From a virus, in IMG/VR virus record IMGVR_UViG_3300006413_000008, positions 1 to 20,669 of that record: DNA of 20,669 nt, one strand, 5' to 3'. The translations under genes and the position numbers were made by a program. How positions within the stretch are numbered: the stretch's first letter is position 1; every line of letters begins with the position of its first letter. This document shows, piece after piece, positions 1,758 to 10,417 of the stretch. The notes under the pieces are model-generated. The model saw only the letters and a list, made by a program, of their open reading frames with translations, was not told the DNA's origin and ran no database searches.

Positions 1758-2189
1758 TTATGTAAGCGTTAAGATACCGTTTGCGCCAATGTCTATTGTA
1801 AAGGTATCACCATCATTTAGCGTCAATGATGATCCATAATCGTAATAACCTACAATCGGATCGGCTGGTGATGTTGGTGTGTCGTTGTAAATAATTACAT
1901 ATCTAAACGCTGCTACTGAACCACCTGACGCTGTTAAAACTAAGTCATCAGCCGAAAGTTTATATGTGCCACTTGTCTGTGTGCTTGTAACATTTTGCAA
2001 TGTTCTTGCAGAAAGATTAGTGTAACTTATTTCCGTAACGTTCGCTAAAACACCATTACCATCTGTCACGATGCTTGTGCCAGACGTAGGGTCAGTATTG
2101 CAAAGTGCAACTTTTAGCGTGTCGCTGTCTAAGTCCATTGCGTTAGCCAGATTGACCACAAAGTCATTTACTTTAGTAAAACTTGCCAT
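1758..2189 (-). CDS. conserved marine-phage virion protein, function unknown
   Basis: A 143-residue protein dominated by predicted beta strands, rich in T, S, D and G, with no membrane segment. The pattern of an N-terminal FVVNLANAMDLDSDTLKVAL, a central YTNLSARTLQ, a FRYVIIYND strand and a terminal IVGYYDYGSSLTLNDGD...IDIGANGIL is one I recognise from many uncultured marine phages. There it sits next to head-tail adaptor and fibre genes and is left as hypothetical. It starts directly after the TAA of the adaptor gene (2190) and lies just before the S74 fibre, so a tail or tail-tip component is the best guess. That role rests on position and composition only. Confidence 0.7.
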   Translation of the reverse strand: MASFTKVNDFVVNLANAMDLDSDTLKVALCNTDPTSGTSIVTDGNGVLANVTEISYTNLSARTLQNVTSTQTSGTYKLSADDLVLTASGGSVAAFRYVIIYNDTPTSPADPIVGYYDYGSSLTLNDGDTFTIDIGANGILTLT

Positions 2190-2807
2190 TTAGTAGCTCC
2201 TTATTTTCATCCTGCGACCAGAGCCGCCAGTTTTTGCTCGTTCACTCTCCGCATTTATATCATTGATTGCCTTTTGATACAATGCACTCCATTCTGCTAT
2301 TCTATTACCCTCAGATAAATATGGCGCAGAATGAAGTAAAGAACCATATAGATATGCAGAAGGATAATAAGTCATTAACCAGTTTGTGTTGTTTGTAGCT
2401 AAGTCTGGTATTTCTTCATAATAAGTTAGCTCAAGAACATAATCACCATCAGGTGCTGGAAAAACCTCAAAGGCTTGGTCTAAAATTGTATAAAGTTTAG
2501 GAGTACCAACATTATCATTATTCGCTTGCCTTAACTTTGATATTTCCAAAGCACCTACAAGCTCTAATATTTGAAAATTTCCTGTTGTTTTTACTAGTCT
2601 TATTGGCTCAAGAAAGTTTACTGGTAAAGCGGTATATTGAGAATCTATCGTTGCAACAGACCTATCTTCCATTCTCCAATGTCTTATTTCTCTATTTAAT
2701 TGAGCTTCTGCAAGACTAATGAAATCAGGAATAACTGACGTTAAATCATCTCTGTTTAAAAAATCGGCTATACTCGCCTTTAAATCATTGTAATTACTTA
2801 AAGCCAT
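2190..2807 (-). CDS. head-tail adaptor protein (phage SU10-type adaptor family)
   Basis: A 205-residue protein. The N-terminal helix NDLKASIADFLNRDDL, followed by IPDFISLAEAQLNREIR at about residues 25-42, and the later TALPVNFLEPIRLV strand, are the hallmark pattern of the podoviral adaptor family to which the phage SU10 adaptor belongs. These proteins form a ring of subunits under the portal and connect it to the tail. A conserved TYYEEIPDL...NWLMTYYPSAYLYGSLLHSAPYL segment, the helical second half of this family, follows at about residues 128-162. The gene abuts its neighbours at both ends (ATG directly after TAA on each side). If the family call is right, the virion is probably podovirus-like. 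Confidence 0.75.
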   Translation of the reverse strand: MALSNYNDLKASIADFLNRDDLTSVIPDFISLAEAQLNREIRHWRMEDRSVATIDSQYTALPVNFLEPIRLVKTTGNFQILELVGALEISKLRQANNDNVGTPKLYTILDQAFEVFPAPDGDYVLELTYYEEIPDLATNNTNWLMTYYPSAYLYGSLLHSAPYLSEGNRIAEWSALYQKAINDINAESERAKTGGSGRRMKIRSY

Positions 2808-3083
2808 TTAACAATTCCACGCTCTTCGCGACCAATAATTAGCCGACAGTTTACTGTTTTTCCCCTTAATGCCTCCACTCCTAGCACAATATGATTTTTT
2901 TCTGCCAGGCTGATCTTTCTTAATTGACATATTTGGATCGCCAAAGGCTATATATTTAACTTGGTTTCCCTCAACAGCCAAGACTTCAAATTTTTTTCTA
3001 CCGCCACGCCTCGGCTTATTCACGGCTTTAAAATTATGCCGAGCCTTTGCCCTTTTAATTTTTTCGGCTTTAGTTAAGGCCAT
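2808..3083 (-). CDS. small basic conserved phage protein with GDPNMSIKKDQPGRKKS motif
   Basis: A 91-residue, strongly basic protein with no membrane segment. The segment KPRRGGRKKFEV near the N-terminus, the central FGDPNMSIKKDQPGRKKSYCARSGG and a terminal tryptophan-bearing YWSRRAWNC form a pattern I know from marine podoviruses and siphoviruses, where the function is unassigned. Cysteines at about residue 66 and at the end are the only ones and could pair. It lies between the 342-aa virion-region protein and the adaptor, in a continuous operon (3-base gap upstream, no gap downstream). A DNA- or capsid-contacting structural role would fit the charge and position, but this is inference. Confidence 0.65.
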   Translation of the reverse strand: MALTKAEKIKRAKARHNFKAVNKPRRGGRKKFEVLAVEGNQVKYIAFGDPNMSIKKDQPGRKKSYCARSGGIKGKNSKLSANYWSRRAWNC

Positions 3084-3086
3084 TTT

Positions 3087-4115
3087 TTACAACTGTCCTG
3101 CGGCTTTCATTCTTTGATACATATCGTAGGCTGCGGCAGGATCATTTAATAAAGCTCCTTGACCTGGGGTTCTTCTAACTAAATCCATAAATTCATCAAA
3201 CCCAGTGTCACCAGTTGATCTACCAAAACGATCTAAAGACCCAGGCTGTTTAAATGCATCTGCACCAGCAAACATTAAGTCTATACCTCTAACTGGCAAA
3301 CCCATATTTGCTCTTTCACCTCGAGACATAGCATCATATTCTGCCTGAGTTACCTGGCTCATAGCTCTACGCATACGCTCACGATTATCTATGTTTTGTT
3401 GTGCCTGGATACGACCATCCTGGGTAGGATCAATATCACCACCATAAGTAGAAACAGTCGGAGCTCTGTAGCCTGAGTCATAGGTTTGCGAACGTGGGTC
3501 TAGATAATCCATGTTCATACTTGGGCCGCCAAATGGATCGAGCCCCATGCCACGTTCCGCAGCTACACCCGTAATGTTAGGCCCTGGACCGCCGAATGGC
3601 TCTAACGGGTCTCCTGGTTGTGTAAAACTTGCTTCTTGAGCCGCCATCGAAGCCTGATTTGCCACAGTCTCTTCTAAAGAAGCTGGTCTAATTCTTGGCC
3701 TTGGTATTGCTCCCGCCACAGCTTGCTGAATAGGTGATGTGGTAGGGCCTCCAAACATACGCTCACGCTGAGAACCGTATGGCTTAATGCCTATATTGTT
3801 TAATATGCCACTTAAAGGGCCACCCTCAAATGTATCACCGCGAGTATCGCGTCCACCTCCATCTATAGCGTCAATAAAAGCAGGAACATAACGCTTGTTT
3901 ACTTCATCAAAGTAACCAAACCTACCATCAGAATTAGCCGCAGCTCGATCTTCAGCAGATGTACTCTCATATCGAGCCGCACCCTTGTTAGAGCCTAGAC
4001 CGCCTTTTCTCTCCGAAGCCCTAGCCTGGGCTGCGTGCACACCCTTAAATGGATTAGGCTTACCAATTATATCAAAATGTCGCTGTATCCTTTCAGCGTG
4101 CGTCATCTCAGCCAT
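3087..4115 (-). CDS. Gly/Pro/Arg-rich protein of unknown function in virion operon
   Basis: A 342-residue protein with little hydrophobic core. It is rich in G, P, R, A and Q, with repeated short motifs such as DPFGGPS and EPFGGPG around residues 170-200. I see no enzymatic motif or membrane segment. A short N-terminal helix (AERIQRHFDIIGKPNPF) and a C-terminal helical end (FDEFMDLVRRTPGQGALLNDP) flank a long disordered-looking middle. It starts in a TAATG overlap with the 39-aa basic gene and is followed three bases later by the 91-aa basic gene. By place it could be an internal virion, ejection or scaffold-like protein. It is not a portal: it is too short and lacks the fold's segments. Confidence 0.6.
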   Translation of the reverse strand: MAEMTHAERIQRHFDIIGKPNPFKGVHAAQARASERKGGLGSNKGAARYESTSAEDRAAANSDGRFGYFDEVNKRYVPAFIDAIDGGGRDTRGDTFEGGPLSGILNNIGIKPYGSQRERMFGGPTTSPIQQAVAGAIPRPRIRPASLEETVANQASMAAQEASFTQPGDPLEPFGGPGPNITGVAAERGMGLDPFGGPSMNMDYLDPRSQTYDSGYRAPTVSTYGGDIDPTQDGRIQAQQNIDNRERMRRAMSQVTQAEYDAMSRGERANMGLPVRGIDLMFAGADAFKQPGSLDRFGRSTGDTGFDEFMDLVRRTPGQGALLNDPAAAYDMYQRMKAAGQL

Positions 4116-4234
4116 TACTTCTTACCCTTCTTTTTTTTGTTCAATTTGTTAAAATCTGCTTTTGTTATCTTTTTGCGCGGTGGGGCAATAGCAGCAAGCT
4201 TTTTTTGCTTTGGGCTATATTTAGAGTATGGCAT
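4115..4234 (-). CDS. 39-aa lysine-rich conserved phage microprotein
   Basis: ATG at 4234 reads 39 codons to TAA at 4117-4115. The product begins MPYSKYSPKQKKLAAIAPPR and ends in a lysine-rich tail (KKKKGKK). About 14 of its 39 residues are lysine or arginine, and there is no acidic patch. The MPYSKYSPKQKKLA start is one I recognise from other marine phage genomes. Both ends are TAATG junctions: its ATG shares the A of the preceding stop, and its stop shares the A of the next gene's ATG. Such reinitiation junctions strongly support translation of a frame this short. The role is unknown; binding to DNA or to a capsid surface is the obvious guess. Confidence 0.7.
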   Translation of the reverse strand: MPYSKYSPKQKKLAAIAPPRKKITKADFNKLNKKKKGKK

Positions 4235-4467
4235 TACTTCTTTCCCCTTTTACTCTTTGTTTTCCAACTTATCCTAGCTGGGCCTGTCTTACGTTTAGCC
4301 GCCCTCTTTGCAGAAGCAGAACTTGCTTTACTTTTAGGACGACAAGCAGGGTAAGGTCTACCTTTATCTTTCTTGCCGCTCCTACCGCACTTCTTGCCTG
4401 TCTTAACATCTCGCCAATCTTCCTTGAACCATTTAGTCAGTCCACCTTTAGGCTTTCTGCTAGGCAT
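4234..4467 (-). CDS. 77-aa basic conserved phage protein (MPSRKPKGGLTKWFKEDW)
   Basis: I chose the ATG at 4467 over an upstream one at 4515, because the preceding gene ends at 4460 and the two overlap as ATGCCTAG, a common coupling junction. The N-terminus MPSRKPKGGLTKWFKEDWRD followed by CGR...GRPYPACRPKSKA is a pattern I know from small proteins in marine phages and other mobile DNA. Two cysteines (in KKCGR and PACRP) and about one third K/R residues suggest a compact nucleic-acid-binding protein, possibly metal-stabilised. That is inference. It is the third of five tiny basic genes downstream of the terminase that stand in unbroken overlap, plus the 39-aa gene after it. Confidence 0.75.
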   Translation of the reverse strand: MPSRKPKGGLTKWFKEDWRDVKTGKKCGRSGKKDKGRPYPACRPKSKASSASAKRAAKRKTGPARISWKTKSKRGKK

Positions 4468-4624
4468 AAGTACCGCCACGCTTTTTGTACTCACGTACCA
4501 ACCAAGCATTTGCATACGCAGAAGGGTAAACCTTAAATTTTTTCTTAGCAGCTTGCTTTACCCTAGCATATAAAGCAGGGTTTTTAGGCGTTGGACTAGA
4601 TGACTTACGAGATTTCTTGGCCAT
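4460..4624 (-). CDS. 54-aa basic conserved phage protein
   Basis: ATG at 4624 reads 54 codons to TAG at 4462-4460. The product (MAKKSRKSSSPTPKNPALYA, then KFKVYPSAYANAWLVREYKK, ending RGGTYA) belongs to a family I recognise from many phage genomes. There the FKVYPSAYANAW...YKKRGG core is nearly invariant. No function is known to me. The start overlaps the preceding TAA as TAATG and the end overlaps the next ATG by 8 bases, so its translation is coupled on both sides. The aromatic core flanked by basic ends could sit in a capsid groove or on nucleic acid. Confidence 0.75.
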   Translation of the reverse strand: MAKKSRKSSSPTPKNPALYARVKQAAKKKFKVYPSAYANAWLVREYKKRGGTYA

Positions 4625-4800
4625 TATGCTCTCTTTCTTGCTTTTTTCTTGGCAGTCATACTTAATTCGCTAAAATGAAAAAGACGCTTACTACTTTTAG
4701 TATGCGTCTTGCCGCTATGAACCTGACCATTAGGCATTTTATGCATACCACCTTTATGCTCAGTTCCATCTCGAAAATAATGCTTAACGCCTTTAGCCAT
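4624..4800 (-). CDS. 58-aa basic conserved phage protein (MAKGVKHYFRDGTEHKG)
   Basis: ATG at 4800 reads 58 codons to TAA at 4626-4624. The sequence opens MAKGVKHYFRDGTEHKG, continues with HKMPNGQVHSGKTHTKSSKR and ends in a K/R-rich tail. It has seven histidines and no cysteine. The MAKGVKH(Y/F)F.DGTE..G start with a following MPNG...G..HT is familiar from marine phages and always unassigned. TAATG junctions link it to the 17-aa gene before and the 54-aa gene after. The evidence for it being a gene is strong, and for function there is none. Confidence 0.75.
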   Translation of the reverse strand: MAKGVKHYFRDGTEHKGGMHKMPNGQVHSGKTHTKSSKRLFHFSELSMTAKKKARKRA

Positions 4801-6832: not shown

Positions 6833-6907
6833 GGGGGGTGGGGGGGTCACTGGGAGGATTGTTTTATAGTGTAAGGGAGTAATACCAAAAAACAGGAAAG
6901 TGACCCC
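6833..6907. repeat. G-run pair and 9-bp inverted repeat upstream of terS
   Basis: Runs of six and seven G (6833-6838 and 6840-6846) are separated by one T and followed by TCACTGGGAGG, which gives enough G tracts for a quadruplex on the plus strand. The end of the second run also starts a perfect 9-bp inverted repeat, GGGGTCACT (6843-6851) with AGTGACCCC (6899-6907), spaced 47 bases apart. The inverted arms could be a dimeric protein site. Terminase binding (pac or cos) or a late operator are candidates. Neither is shown. Confidence 0.5.
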
Positions 6908-6952: not shown

Positions 6953-7166
6953 ATAATAGTAGGTAGAATAAGTTTAGTGGGGGGGGGTCGCACAAAAAAA
7001 ATCCAGTCAAAATCAAGTCAAAAATGTTTTTCGCATAAGATACTTTATGTTAAATGATTTGCTAAGTGTCTGTTTTTAAACTGTTATTTTTAAGCAAAAT
7101 CTCCAGTTTTACCAAAGTATAACAAAAGCGACAAAAACCTTGCAAAGTTTAACGCTTTTTATTATT

Positions 7167-7302: not shown

Positions 7303-7596
7303 ATGGCTAGAAATGATAGATTAAGCAACTACAGAACAACTTGGTTTAACAATGATAATTTTGGCGGTGTGCGATATGTGAATACCGACATTGTGACGTG
7401 GAAGGATGGCAAGGTAACACTCAACTCAGATGGTTGGGAAACTGTCACAACCAAGCGCAAAATGAACCAAGCCTCTAATCAATTTGGTTTGCGCTTTGAT
7501 GTTTACCAAGACAACTTCGAATGGTTCGTAAACTTACCAAACGGACAAACCGTCAAATATTATGACGGTATCACATTTGAAATCTTTGGAGGTTAA
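7303..7596 (+). CDS. 97-aa conserved phage protein, function unknown
   Basis: First gene of the rightward block, with AAAGGA nine to ten bases before the ATG. The core GVRYVNTDIVTW, GKVTLNSDGWETVTTKRKMN and FGLRFDVYQD is a pattern I associate with a small hypothetical family in phages and mobile DNA. It is beta-rich with several tryptophans, no cysteine, and no catalytic or helix-turn-helix motif. Its stop codon TAA (7594-7596) forms the first three bases of the long hairpin that follows, so ribosomes finishing this gene would run into that structure. Early expression is likely from its promoter-proximal place. Confidence 0.7.
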   Translation: MARNDRLSNYRTTWFNNDNFGGVRYVNTDIVTWKDGKVTLNSDGWETVTTKRKMNQASNQFGLRFDVYQDNFEWFVNLPNGQTVKYYDGITFEIFGG

Positions 7597-7671
7597 GCAT
7601 CGGTGCAGAGCGGTTATATCCGCTCTCATCCCATGCTTAGTTAAGGCATGAAAACAACAGAGGAAAAAATG
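7594..7671 (+). promoter_or_regulatory. structured RNA leader, copy 1 (two alternative helices)
   Basis: From the stop codon of the 97-aa gene the RNA can fold into a long hairpin. The pairs are TAAGCAT (7594-7600) with ATGCTTA (7633-7639), GGTG (7602-7605) with CATC (7627-7630), and AGAGCGG (7607-7613) with CCGCTCT (7620-7626), closing a TTATAT loop. The 3' strand of the outer helix can instead pair downstream, CATGCTT (7632-7638) with AGGCATG (7644-7650). The two folds exclude each other. The Shine-Dalgarno AGAGG (7659-7663) and ATGACAATG follow. A second copy at 9435 keeps both folds despite base changes. It is too long and U-poor for a simple terminator. A regulatory leader or processing site is the likely role. 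Confidence 0.75.
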
Positions 7672-8232
7672 ACAATGAATATAGAAGAACTACAGAAGGT
7701 CTTTAAGTCTCATGGCTTAAACCTTGAGATAGTCTCTAACGATCAAATCGCATGGCGTGACGAATACGCAAACGTTCTGAGAGTGAGAGTTTATCTAAAC
7801 CAACAACACATCTTTGAATTACATTCGGAATGTCGGTCGATTGGTTATGCAGCCGAACAAATCGAGCATTTGATAGCCGACACAAAGGAAGAAATAGAAG
7901 ATGCTCAAGGATCGGTCTTTAATCCGTTTTATGAGATCGACAAACCGCGAAAAGATGTGACGGCTTGCTATAAATTCGGTCAACTGGCGCAAAAATTTGA
8001 AGTCAGAGTATCTTCGCTAGGAGATTTTTCGCTAGTCAATCTTGAGACCAGATGTGCAATAGATGCTTTTGTAGAAGAGTTTGACTATTACGCTTGCGAA
8101 GCTCCAGAGAGCTTCCAAAATCTAGCTCAAGAATTATTCATCGAAGAGTTAGGAGAAACGGAGGCCGAAAAAATAGATTGGCCTACAATCACAAAGCATT
8201 TTTTATCAAAGGAAGGGAACCAAAATGTTTAA
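7669..8232 (+). CDS. 187-aa protein of unknown function behind RNA leader copy 1
   Basis: I start at the ATG at 7669 (MTMNIEELQ). It stands five bases after AGAGG and corresponds exactly to the start of the other leader-linked gene at 9506. An ATG at 7648 lies inside the leader helix and lacks a site. The protein is soluble and acidic, with helical stretches (AAEQIEHLIADTKEEIEDAQ) and an aromatic-acidic second half (FVEEFDYYACEAPESF). No known domain is visible. It overlaps the next gene by 8 bases (ATGTTTAA). An accessory early role, perhaps against host defences, is a guess from context only. Confidence 0.7.
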   Translation: MTMNIEELQKVFKSHGLNLEIVSNDQIAWRDEYANVLRVRVYLNQQHIFELHSECRSIGYAAEQIEHLIADTKEEIEDAQGSVFNPFYEIDKPRKDVTACYKFGQLAQKFEVRVSSLGDFSLVNLETRCAIDAFVEEFDYYACEAPESFQNLAQELFIEELGETEAEKIDWPTITKHFLSKEGNQNV

Positions 8233-9091
8233 ATTCTATAAGAGAATATTTGCCACGTTAAACGATCCTTATAATGACCAAGATTGGAACGGATTTGTTT
8301 ACTTGTCTTTAGGTGACAAAAAACCATCCAGAGATGATGACTACCACAATTTTTATCACATCCAAAAAAATGATGATAAATGGTTAAAGGCGCAAGCCTA
8401 TAGCGGAATGGGTGGGAAACAATATAGCCTTTTGATCGAACGCTCAGAAATTACAAGCGACAGTTTGGAAGAGTTAGAGAACCACCTTTTCGAATGGATC
8501 AAAGGCGAAGTTGGTTTCGATGATTATCGCATTATTTGGGGTGGTGGTGTTGAGACTGAGTTTCCAAACTATGATGATTTAGAAACTTACTACAAAGCCA
8601 AACTAGATTTGTCTCTTTATGGCTTTGAGGATCAATGTTGGCATAATGAAGCCATGCCTCATCTCTGCAAACCATTAGACAATGAAGATGAGGCCATCCG
8701 ATTTTGGATTGACTTCAAAGATCATAAGTTAAGCGATTTACACTATGACAAAAAAGATGACAAACCTTATTTAAGGTACCTTGTTGAACGTAGCGAATAC
8801 GGTTGCTACGACACAAGGCAAGTTTCTAAAAACTTTGAGACCTATAAGGACGCAATCCACTTTGTCAAAAGCTTGGTAAAAAGTTGTGTCTATATGGTCG
8901 AATGGAAAGAAGGCTATCCAGAGGAAATCCAACCAGAGTTTTTTACGCTTAAAGATTTTATGGGCGAAGAATGGAACCTTGAAGCCTACGACTTATCGGT
9001 GGATGACATTGAAGGGCTTTTGATTGGTCAATCAATGGATAGTGTCGGCGTTACTGATCGAATAACAATAACCAGAATGGGAGATGTTTAG
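8225..9091 (+). CDS. 288-aa acidic, aromatic-rich protein with possible internal duplication
   Basis: The ATG at 8225 follows GGAAGGGAACCAAA and overlaps the previous stop by 8 bases. The protein is rich in D, E, Y, W and F with many DD pairs, and has no membrane segment or known catalytic motif. Two similar stretches, KQYSLLIERSE (65-75) and PYLRYLVERSE (181-191), are each preceded by a DD/K-rich segment and followed by a helix. This hints at two copies of one alpha-beta domain. The acidity is compatible with a DNA-mimic inhibitor, as in phage anti-restriction proteins, but that is only an idea. The family is unknown to me. Confidence 0.7.
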   Translation: MFKFYKRIFATLNDPYNDQDWNGFVYLSLGDKKPSRDDDYHNFYHIQKNDDKWLKAQAYSGMGGKQYSLLIERSEITSDSLEELENHLFEWIKGEVGFDDYRIIWGGGVETEFPNYDDLETYYKAKLDLSLYGFEDQCWHNEAMPHLCKPLDNEDEAIRFWIDFKDHKLSDLHYDKKDDKPYLRYLVERSEYGCYDTRQVSKNFETYKDAIHFVKSLVKSCVYMVEWKEGYPEEIQPEFFTLKDFMGEEWNLEAYDLSVDDIEGLLIGQSMDSVGVTDRITITRMGDV

Positions 9092-9092
9092 A

Positions 9093-9272
9093 ATGAACGG
9101 TCAAGAAGTTTACGAAACGTTTGACCGCATCGAACGAACTCTCAAAGAGTTGAGAGATGCAGAAACGTATCTTGAAAAGACAATGTTAAGAATACGCATT
9201 GCTCAAGGCGAATTGGGAAACTTAATACAATATGTAAGATATGAGGTGAAAAAAGATGACGAATTACGATAA
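9093..9272 (+). CDS. 59-aa helical protein, function unknown
   Basis: I start at ATG 9093 (MNGQEVYETF), nine bases after GGGAG (9079-9083). The in-frame ATG at 9084 touches that site with no spacing. The product is almost entirely helical and charged (RIERTLKELRDAETYLEKTMLRIRIAQG), probably a coiled-coil dimer. It lies directly after the 288-aa gene and its 3' end overlaps the next small gene by 17 bases. No family recognised. Confidence 0.6.
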   Translation: MNGQEVYETFDRIERTLKELRDAETYLEKTMLRIRIAQGELGNLIQYVRYEVKKDDELR

Positions 9273-9366
9273 AAACGCAGTTGATAAAGCAATAGCAACA
9301 TCAACTAAACCCATTAGCAAAAAAGAAGCTAAACTTATTCATGCTTTATTAAAAGGGAATAAATAA
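9256..9366 (+). CDS. 36-aa lysine-rich microprotein
   Basis: ATG at 9256 stands eight bases after GAGG (9244-9247), which lies inside the end of the preceding gene. It encodes 36 residues (MTNYDKNAVDKAIATSTKPI, then SKKEAKLIHALLKGNK). The product looks like two short amphipathic helices. The overlap and the ribosome-binding site support translation. No family recognised, and function unknown. Confidence 0.55.
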   Translation: MTNYDKNAVDKAIATSTKPISKKEAKLIHALLKGNK

Positions 9367-9368
9367 AA

Positions 9369-9437
9369 ATGATTAGTGAAACCATTTTAAGTGCGGTTGC
9401 AATCGCTATGCTATTTGCAATCGTACTATTTGCTTAA
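9369..9437 (+). CDS. 22-aa single-span membrane microprotein
   Basis: ATG at 9369 follows the preceding stop by two bases, with AAGGG 11 bases upstream. The product, MISETILSAVAIAMLFAIVL plus FA, is one hydrophobic helix long enough to span the membrane, with a short polar N-terminus. Its TAA (9435-9437) is the first part of RNA leader copy 2, exactly as the 97-aa gene's TAA begins copy 1. It may be a real membrane peptide, a leader peptide whose translation controls the hairpin, or both. Confidence 0.55.
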   Translation: MISETILSAVAIAMLFAIVLFA

Positions 9438-9508
9438 GTATCGGTGTGGAGCGGTTTAGCCGCTCCCATCCCATGCTTAATCAGAGGCATGACAACAGAG
9501 GGAAAATG
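9435..9508 (+). promoter_or_regulatory. structured RNA leader, copy 2 (covarying duplicate of copy 1)
   Basis: The same architecture as at 7594. TAAGTAT (9435-9441) pairs with ATGCTTA (9473-9479), with a G-U replacing the G-C of copy 1. GGTG (9443-9446) pairs with CATC (9467-9470). GGAGCGG (9448-9454) pairs with CCGCTCC (9460-9466), where the closing A-T pair of copy 1 has become G-C. The alternative helix CATGCTT (9472-9478) with AGGCATG (9485-9491) is kept, although its loop differs. ACAGAGGGAAA and ATGACAATG follow. Retained pairing with changed bases supports an RNA-level function. Confidence 0.75.
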
Positions 9509-9796
9509 ACAATGACAGATTATGTAAAAGTTAGATTTGGATTTTTTGATAATGAAAACGATCCTATTTATGAGGGCTTCTATAATCCTTTAGGTAAACG
9601 TTGGAATGGTTGGTTAAATCCATATGTTACTAAGGAAGTATTTGATAAAATAATGGATGACAATGTGCCAAAAGTTTTTAATCCAGATTGGGATGAAGAG
9701 GAATTTTGGCTTGATTATCTAAACCAAGAACCAAACAAAGATGGGCTTTATTTTTTAGGTTATGGTCTTTGTTGGTATGATGAAAATGATGTTTAA
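9506..9796 (+). CDS. 96-aa acidic aromatic protein behind RNA leader copy 2
   Basis: I start at ATG 9506 (MTMTDYVKVRFGFFD), after AGAGGGAAA and matching the MTM start of the gene behind leader copy 1. An ATG in frame at 9446 lies inside the hairpin and would be an artefact. The protein is very rich in F, W, Y, D, N and G (for example NPDWDEEEFWLDYLNQ, YFLGYGLCWYDEND) and strongly acidic. No known domain, and no membrane helix. The next gene's Shine-Dalgarno site (AAGGAG, 9795-9800) overlaps its stop codon. Confidence 0.65.
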   Translation: MTMTDYVKVRFGFFDNENDPIYEGFYNPLGKRWNGWLNPYVTKEVFDKIMDDNVPKVFNPDWDEEEFWLDYLNQEPNKDGLYFLGYGLCWYDENDV

Positions 9797-10388: not shown

Positions 10389-10417
10389 AGCCCACGTTTA
10401 ATCGTGGGCTTTTTTTT
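10389..10417 (+). terminator. intrinsic terminator of the rightward block
   Basis: AGCCCACG (10389-10396) and CGTGGGCT (10403-10410) form an 8-bp GC-rich stem around a TTTAAT loop, followed by an unbroken run of T to 10417. It is unidirectional for the plus strand. The stop codon and last codons of the opposing 65-aa gene lie inside it. Confidence 0.9.

Follow-up and report, generated by a model that had tools for sequence, protein, structure and literature searches.

An RNA hairpin family anchored at stop codons between phage genes: a candidate portable intercistronic operator

In podoviruses, the RNase III sites of T7 early mRNA are hairpins located between early genes, and to bacterial RNase III itself a loose specificity is usually ascribed. 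In anti-CRISPR operons, Aca2-type RNA operators are hairpins that precede the ribosome-binding sites of genes for counter-defence, with Aca2, an anti-CRISPR-associated HTH protein, being the described regulator of such a translational RNA operator, and the PeSL cassettes of T4-type phages join an early promoter to a stem-loop. The nearest analogue found to the element considered here is the ESAS/SAS of cluster K mycobacteriophages, repeats just upstream of the starts of a subset of non-structural genes (PMC3203893). ESAS is an inverted repeat with a variable spacer, its 17-bp repeats adjoin the 13-bp SAS, its occurrence is mainly in one mycobacteriophage cluster, its function is unknown and, for its authors, an mRNA hairpin had little support (PMC3203893).

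How does the present locus compare? The 20,669-nucleotide virus record IMGVR_UViG_3300006413_000008, the whole of which is the window below, has two plus-strand members of one motif, each a hairpin followed by AGGCAUG (copy 1, 7594-7650; copy 2, 9434-9491), and CATCCCATGCTTA is present exactly twice in the record, in these copies only. As with ESAS, an inverted repeat precedes the starts of non-structural genes, but the sequence differs, strong covariation and occurrence in 33 lineages are on the side of the new motif, and the published SAS consensus GGGATAGGAGCCC is, by sequence, absent before both window start codons. The folds, and positions in the phages CRP-361 and CRP-114, resemble T7 RNase III sites in that a hairpin of approximately two turns is between early genes; unlike those sites, the motif has a near-invariant core and begins at a stop codon, and cleavage of it is putative. 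With Aca2-type operators it shares a hairpin before the ribosome-binding site, but its sequence differs, its downstream genes are many and unrelated, and the incomplete flanks revealed no Aca-like shared regulator. Like PeSL it provides stem-loops at gene borders tied to gene-cassette exchange, but neither window hairpin was called as an intrinsic terminator (G+C-rich stem plus T run) in the window terminator scan, and a promoter scan confined to sigma-70-like types gave no match overlapping either.

Both elements are inside a plus-strand cluster of small genes, from ~7.3 to 10.4 kb, which ends at a terminator-like site at 10389-10410; the minus strand carries the structural genes, terminase among them, and by large terminase the nearest named phage is Sinorhizobium phage phiM5 (54.8% identity). 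Two G runs, at 6835-6850 and 6980-6988, are in the divergent region that separates the plus-strand cluster from the terminase genes. In copy 1, TAA 7594-7596 is the in-frame stop of the ORF at 7303-7596 and also the first three bases of the 5′ strand (UAAGCAU, 7594-7600) of the outer helix, P1, as judged from sequence, ORF list and P1 covariation. The gene ending there matches Kyano_Gp96/phrog_554, a function-unknown family named for cyanophages. The 5′ side of the core (7601-7606) comprises the mismatched C7601, GGUG at 7602-7605 and the linker C7606, and was delimited by near-invariance and by compensated core pairs in variants; it is followed by the inner hairpin P2 (AGAGCGG-UUAUAU-CCGCUCU, 7607-7626), for which there is the fold and covariation in all 6 modelled pairs, and by the 3′ side of the core (7627-7632), namely CA, a bulged U7629 that is kept while the flanking pairs vary, CC and the mismatched C7632. 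Fold and covariation also identify the 3′ strand of P1 (AUGCUUA, 7633-7639). Beyond it, AGGCAUG (7644-7650) can pair with CAUGCUU at 7632-7638 to form an alternative helix, a subtype feature seen in folds and considered below, and an SD-like GAGG and the start ATG 7669 (or 7675) of ORF 7669-8232 are located within 7660-7677 (sequence and ORF list).

Copy 2 is opened by the stop of an ORF for a 22-amino-acid hydrophobic peptide (MISETILSAVAIAMLFAIVLFA, 9369-9437), evident from the sequence and conserved in relatives. Its P1 5′ strand, UUAAGUAU (9434-9441; sequence, fold and covariance model), includes that stop, TAA 9435-9437. Core and P2 (9442-9472; fold, covariance model and covariation) consist of C9442, GGUG 9443-9446, P2 at 9448-9466, CA, the bulged U9469, CC and C9472, and the P1 3′ strand, AUGCUUAA, is at 9473-9480 (fold and covariance model). 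From the fold, AGGCAUG at 9485-9491 can form the alternative helix with 9472-9478, and an SD-like GAGGG with the start ATG 9506 (or 9512) of ORF 9506-9796 is within 9498-9514 (sequence and ORF list). In several relatives the peptide directly 5′ of the element is kept and a different gene follows the element. That the ATG of GGCATG has a coding role was discarded: read by eye, copy 1 has it in frame and copy 2 does not, and relatives vary in this respect. The first-pass annotation had described two elements of the same architecture, each opening at the stop of the preceding gene, with the closing pair of the inner stem changing from A-T (7607/7626) to G-C (9448/9466), and the sequence bears it out on all three points. 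It was right too that an outer pair covaries, but not about its identity: 7598/7635 is C-G and 9439/9475 is U.G, rather than G-C and G-U.

Is the structure real? Against dinucleotide shuffles the isolated hairpins had z values of -5.7 and -5.45, with none of the 200 shuffles folding as well. A pair of copies is little proof on its own, and it is the covariation in relatives that settles the matter. In the motif as a whole, P1, about 7-10 bp long, starts from the upstream stop and has within it a 1x1 mismatch (C.C, U.U, A.C or C.A); then come the GGUG/CAUCC core, with two GG/CC pairs, the bulged U and two UG/CA pairs, the variable P2, and, after the hairpin closes, the ribosome-binding site and the start codon. 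Rather than helices broken without compensation, the full set (alignment A3) has compensatory double changes at 16 of 18 modelled pairs, with a covariation score of 0.568 versus 0.147 when shuffled and at most ~0.1 with slid partners. When each of the 33 lineages contributes a single sequence, there are 106 double-changed cells versus 29.7 +/- 3.9 in shuffled alignments. What had been proposed as a structured, covarying RNA leader is thus just that, since its hairpins beat shuffles and the covariation of relatives is far above that of shuffled sequences. As the search patterns fixed the core and the sequences were filtered on P2, both are biased for covariation and P1 provides the least biased evidence; there, column pair 11/72 is GC in 26, UA in 4 and AU in 3 of the 33 lineages. 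With the three mismatch columns of P1 excluded, G.U is found in 70 cells and A.C in 2, and tolerance of the one and not the other means that the structure forms in sense RNA. At columns 12/71 an A.C mismatch is present in 17 of the 33 lineages, usually opposite the A of UGA; it may be functional, as a weak helix end, or may be a by-product of the stop codon. The core changes as well, from GGUG/CAUCC to GAUG/CAUUC, with the bulged U kept, and the rare compensated variants ACUGGUG..CAUCCUGU and UACCGAUG..CAUUCCGUA also retain it. That the core is strongly conserved despite the free sequence of P2 points to specific recognition. The motif itself is well established.

Its distribution became apparent with progressively looser searches. 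Nine contigs of close relatives matched an exact pattern; a pattern with inner stem and spacing free, and GCATGA required, found 53 contigs, many from unrelated phages; and two without the GCATGA requirement found 102 and 49. An inner stem of at least 5 pairs was taken to define the real class, matches with 3 pairs or fewer (short or none) being discarded as chance and a borderline locus with 5 pairs (L165) also being set aside. A search for further copies with a covariance model (R2, from 55 sequences; threshold E<=3e-4) yielded 147 in 78 searched sequences, changed-core variants included. When contigs sharing a protein of at least 75% identity over 100 amino acids are joined, the carriers form 33 lineages without a closely similar shared protein. 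The motif recurs in no fewer than 33 phage lineages that otherwise differ, and phages infecting Paracoccaceae are among its carriers. Named carriers are the Roseobacter phages CRP-361 and CRP-114 and Paracoccus prophages. Some contigs (L101, L081, L098 and L072) have dense arrays of four to seven elements with variant cores, one before most small genes, and L101 has seven copies in 4.8 kb (1847-4779). No match was obtained in SIO1, DSS3phi2, RDJL Phi 1, HTVC010P, RcTitan, phiM5 or CRP-403, and with so many named phages lacking the element, its occurrence is patchy and there seem to be few false positives. BLAST of the short element against phages and plasmids returned mostly chance matches, though CRP-361 and CRP-114 surfaced, and a pattern scan of genome contigs gave three chance-like matches, none of which was scored by the covariance model. 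The initial opinion that no named motif matches agrees with Rfam 15, no family of which exceeded its gathering threshold in the window or ten related loci; an LhrC match at E<=5, elsewhere than in the elements, was put down to chance. Literature searches, from which subscription papers were mostly missing, found no description of it. Thus, with neither Rfam 15 match nor description found, this is a previously uncatalogued RNA hairpin family.

The positional rule is strict. Of 104 pattern matches, 101 have a stop codon, of whichever type, where P1 begins, and UGA, UAA and UAG are all used. For 131 copies the preceding ORF was usable, having 30 codons or more or extending past the contig end, and in 109 of these copies the ORF's in-frame stop is inside the 5′ strand of P1. 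Downstream of nearly every copy are an SD-like site and a start codon, and orientation is fixed relative to the genes and the SD. In CRP-361, gp4 ends at 2305, the match is 2295-2359 and gp5 starts at 2376; in CRP-114 the element is exactly between the CDSs gp5 and gp6; in Pben1, p12 ends at 4503, the minus-strand match is 4455-4504 and the start of p11 is 4436; and in the Paracoccus sp. TOH p1 prophage the match of 604253-604317 has before it a DUF2303 gene, with its end at 604258, and after it a gene that starts at 604324. The anchoring at stops could merely reflect tight gene packing, as P1 cannot easily extend into coding sequence.

What flanks the element? Mostly small proteins without known function, with the recognised families including ArdA, ArdC, an Acb2/Tad1 hairpin, DUF932, DUF3560, GP88, RadC and methyltransferases; among the 146 flanking proteins scanned, named anti-defence families are a handful. 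Within the incomplete flanks examined every protein family was confined to 5 or fewer of the 33 lineages, and this speaks for a host factor rather than a shared phage-encoded one. Seventeen clusters have the same upstream gene followed by different downstream genes, and 18 the reverse. Compared with window positions 7600-8223, three close relatives (L007, L014 and L015) are without the element and without gene 7669-8232, and another (L006) keeps the element with that gene absent. Within the window's family there are also breakpoints without an element, 9259/9369 and 10021/10359, and as these are at element-free gene borders the region is variable in general and exchange is not specific to the element.

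To the reading that we prefer, that of a portable intercistronic RNA operator in several unrelated phage lineages, some at least infecting alphaproteobacteria, we give, from sequence comparison, a probability of roughly 0.4. Given the usual ribosome footprint, a ribosome terminating on the upstream stop would cover the 5′ strand of P1 and GGUG, leaving only P2; on its departure P1 would refold, and the folded core with its bulged U would be recognised by a host factor that binds or processes RNA. In this way the element would separate expression of the downstream cistron (translation and/or mRNA stability) from that of the upstream one, and would let early gene cassettes swap while each keeps its own control signal. 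A more specific version, a termination-gated switch that senses a ribosome stopping at the preceding gene, has its bulged-U core read by a host factor, decides expression of the next gene and is reused by unrelated phages for early, partly counter-defence cassettes, is possible but doubtful.

The main rival is that the hairpin is a site for host RNase III, or another endonuclease, whose cuts would free separate early cistrons as in T7 early mRNA. The length of about two helical turns and the location between early genes are in accord with this, T7-like CRP phages carry the element in the same left-end early region, and a host factor alone would suffice, which fits the spread over unrelated phages; base-by-base conservation of the core, however, exceeds what loose specificity requires, and with P1 so often having an A.C mismatch we consider this rather unlikely. 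Distinctly unlikely is an Aca2-like translational operator at which a phage-encoded regulator represses early or anti-defence genes: the hairpin is short and directly before the SD, a genome can have several, and anti-restriction or anti-defence proteins (ArdA, ArdC, Acb2/Tad1) are among the neighbours, all of which fits, but the SD is outside the structure, the flanks examined have no protein family common to carriers and the named anti-defence families are so few. The switching of gene content at element borders in close relatives raises the issue of an inverted repeat acting in double-stranded DNA, as recombination linker or DNA operator, but the preference for G.U over A.C, the fixed orientation and the breakpoints where the element is absent make this very improbable. 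An RNA anti-CRISPR, i.e., a solitary mimic of a CRISPR repeat, also appears unlikely because even within one phage the copies have different P2 stem sequences.

The model of the first-pass annotation was a two-state translational switch driven by the ribosome, with termination moving CAUGC from P1 to the GCAUG just before the SD. In two variant copies both strands of this alternative helix have changed together, to CGUGC..GCACG (L119) and CGUAC..GUACG (L038), so it is a real feature of its large subtype. It is not general: loci found only by the pattern that required GCATGA are uninformative here, and of the 49 unbiased canonical copies 12 have GCATG near, 4 have it further away and 33 are without it within 60 nt. 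The fold energies are near-balanced, and with the stop region blocked in ensemble folding the mean probability of the alternative helix in the GCATG subtype rises from 0.39 to 0.95, so the predicted effect of a terminating ribosome on the helix was reproduced in the modelling. A consistent effect on the SD was not: between modelled states there is no consistent shift in accessibility of SD and start, the mean unpaired values for the SD being 0.62 versus 0.56, and 0.45 versus 0.50, and in the window they go in opposite directions, from 0.45 to 0.72 in copy 1 and from 0.77 to 0.17 in copy 2. SD sequestration as a general mechanism was accordingly rejected, the two-fold switch is at most a feature of one subtype, and as an account of the element overall it is improbable.

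Whether or not the portable operator is the right reading, what crosses at least 33 phage lineages is an RNA family that covaries and keeps strictly to one order, stop codon then hairpin then SD, and the carriers apparently have a control or processing signal in common. The motif gives a direct way into the question of how phages divide up operons made of small early genes, and it is a conserved bait with which to find the factor, of host or phage, that reads the hairpin. Since the element flags early accessory cassettes, some of them for counter-defence, it could also help in finding new early genes.
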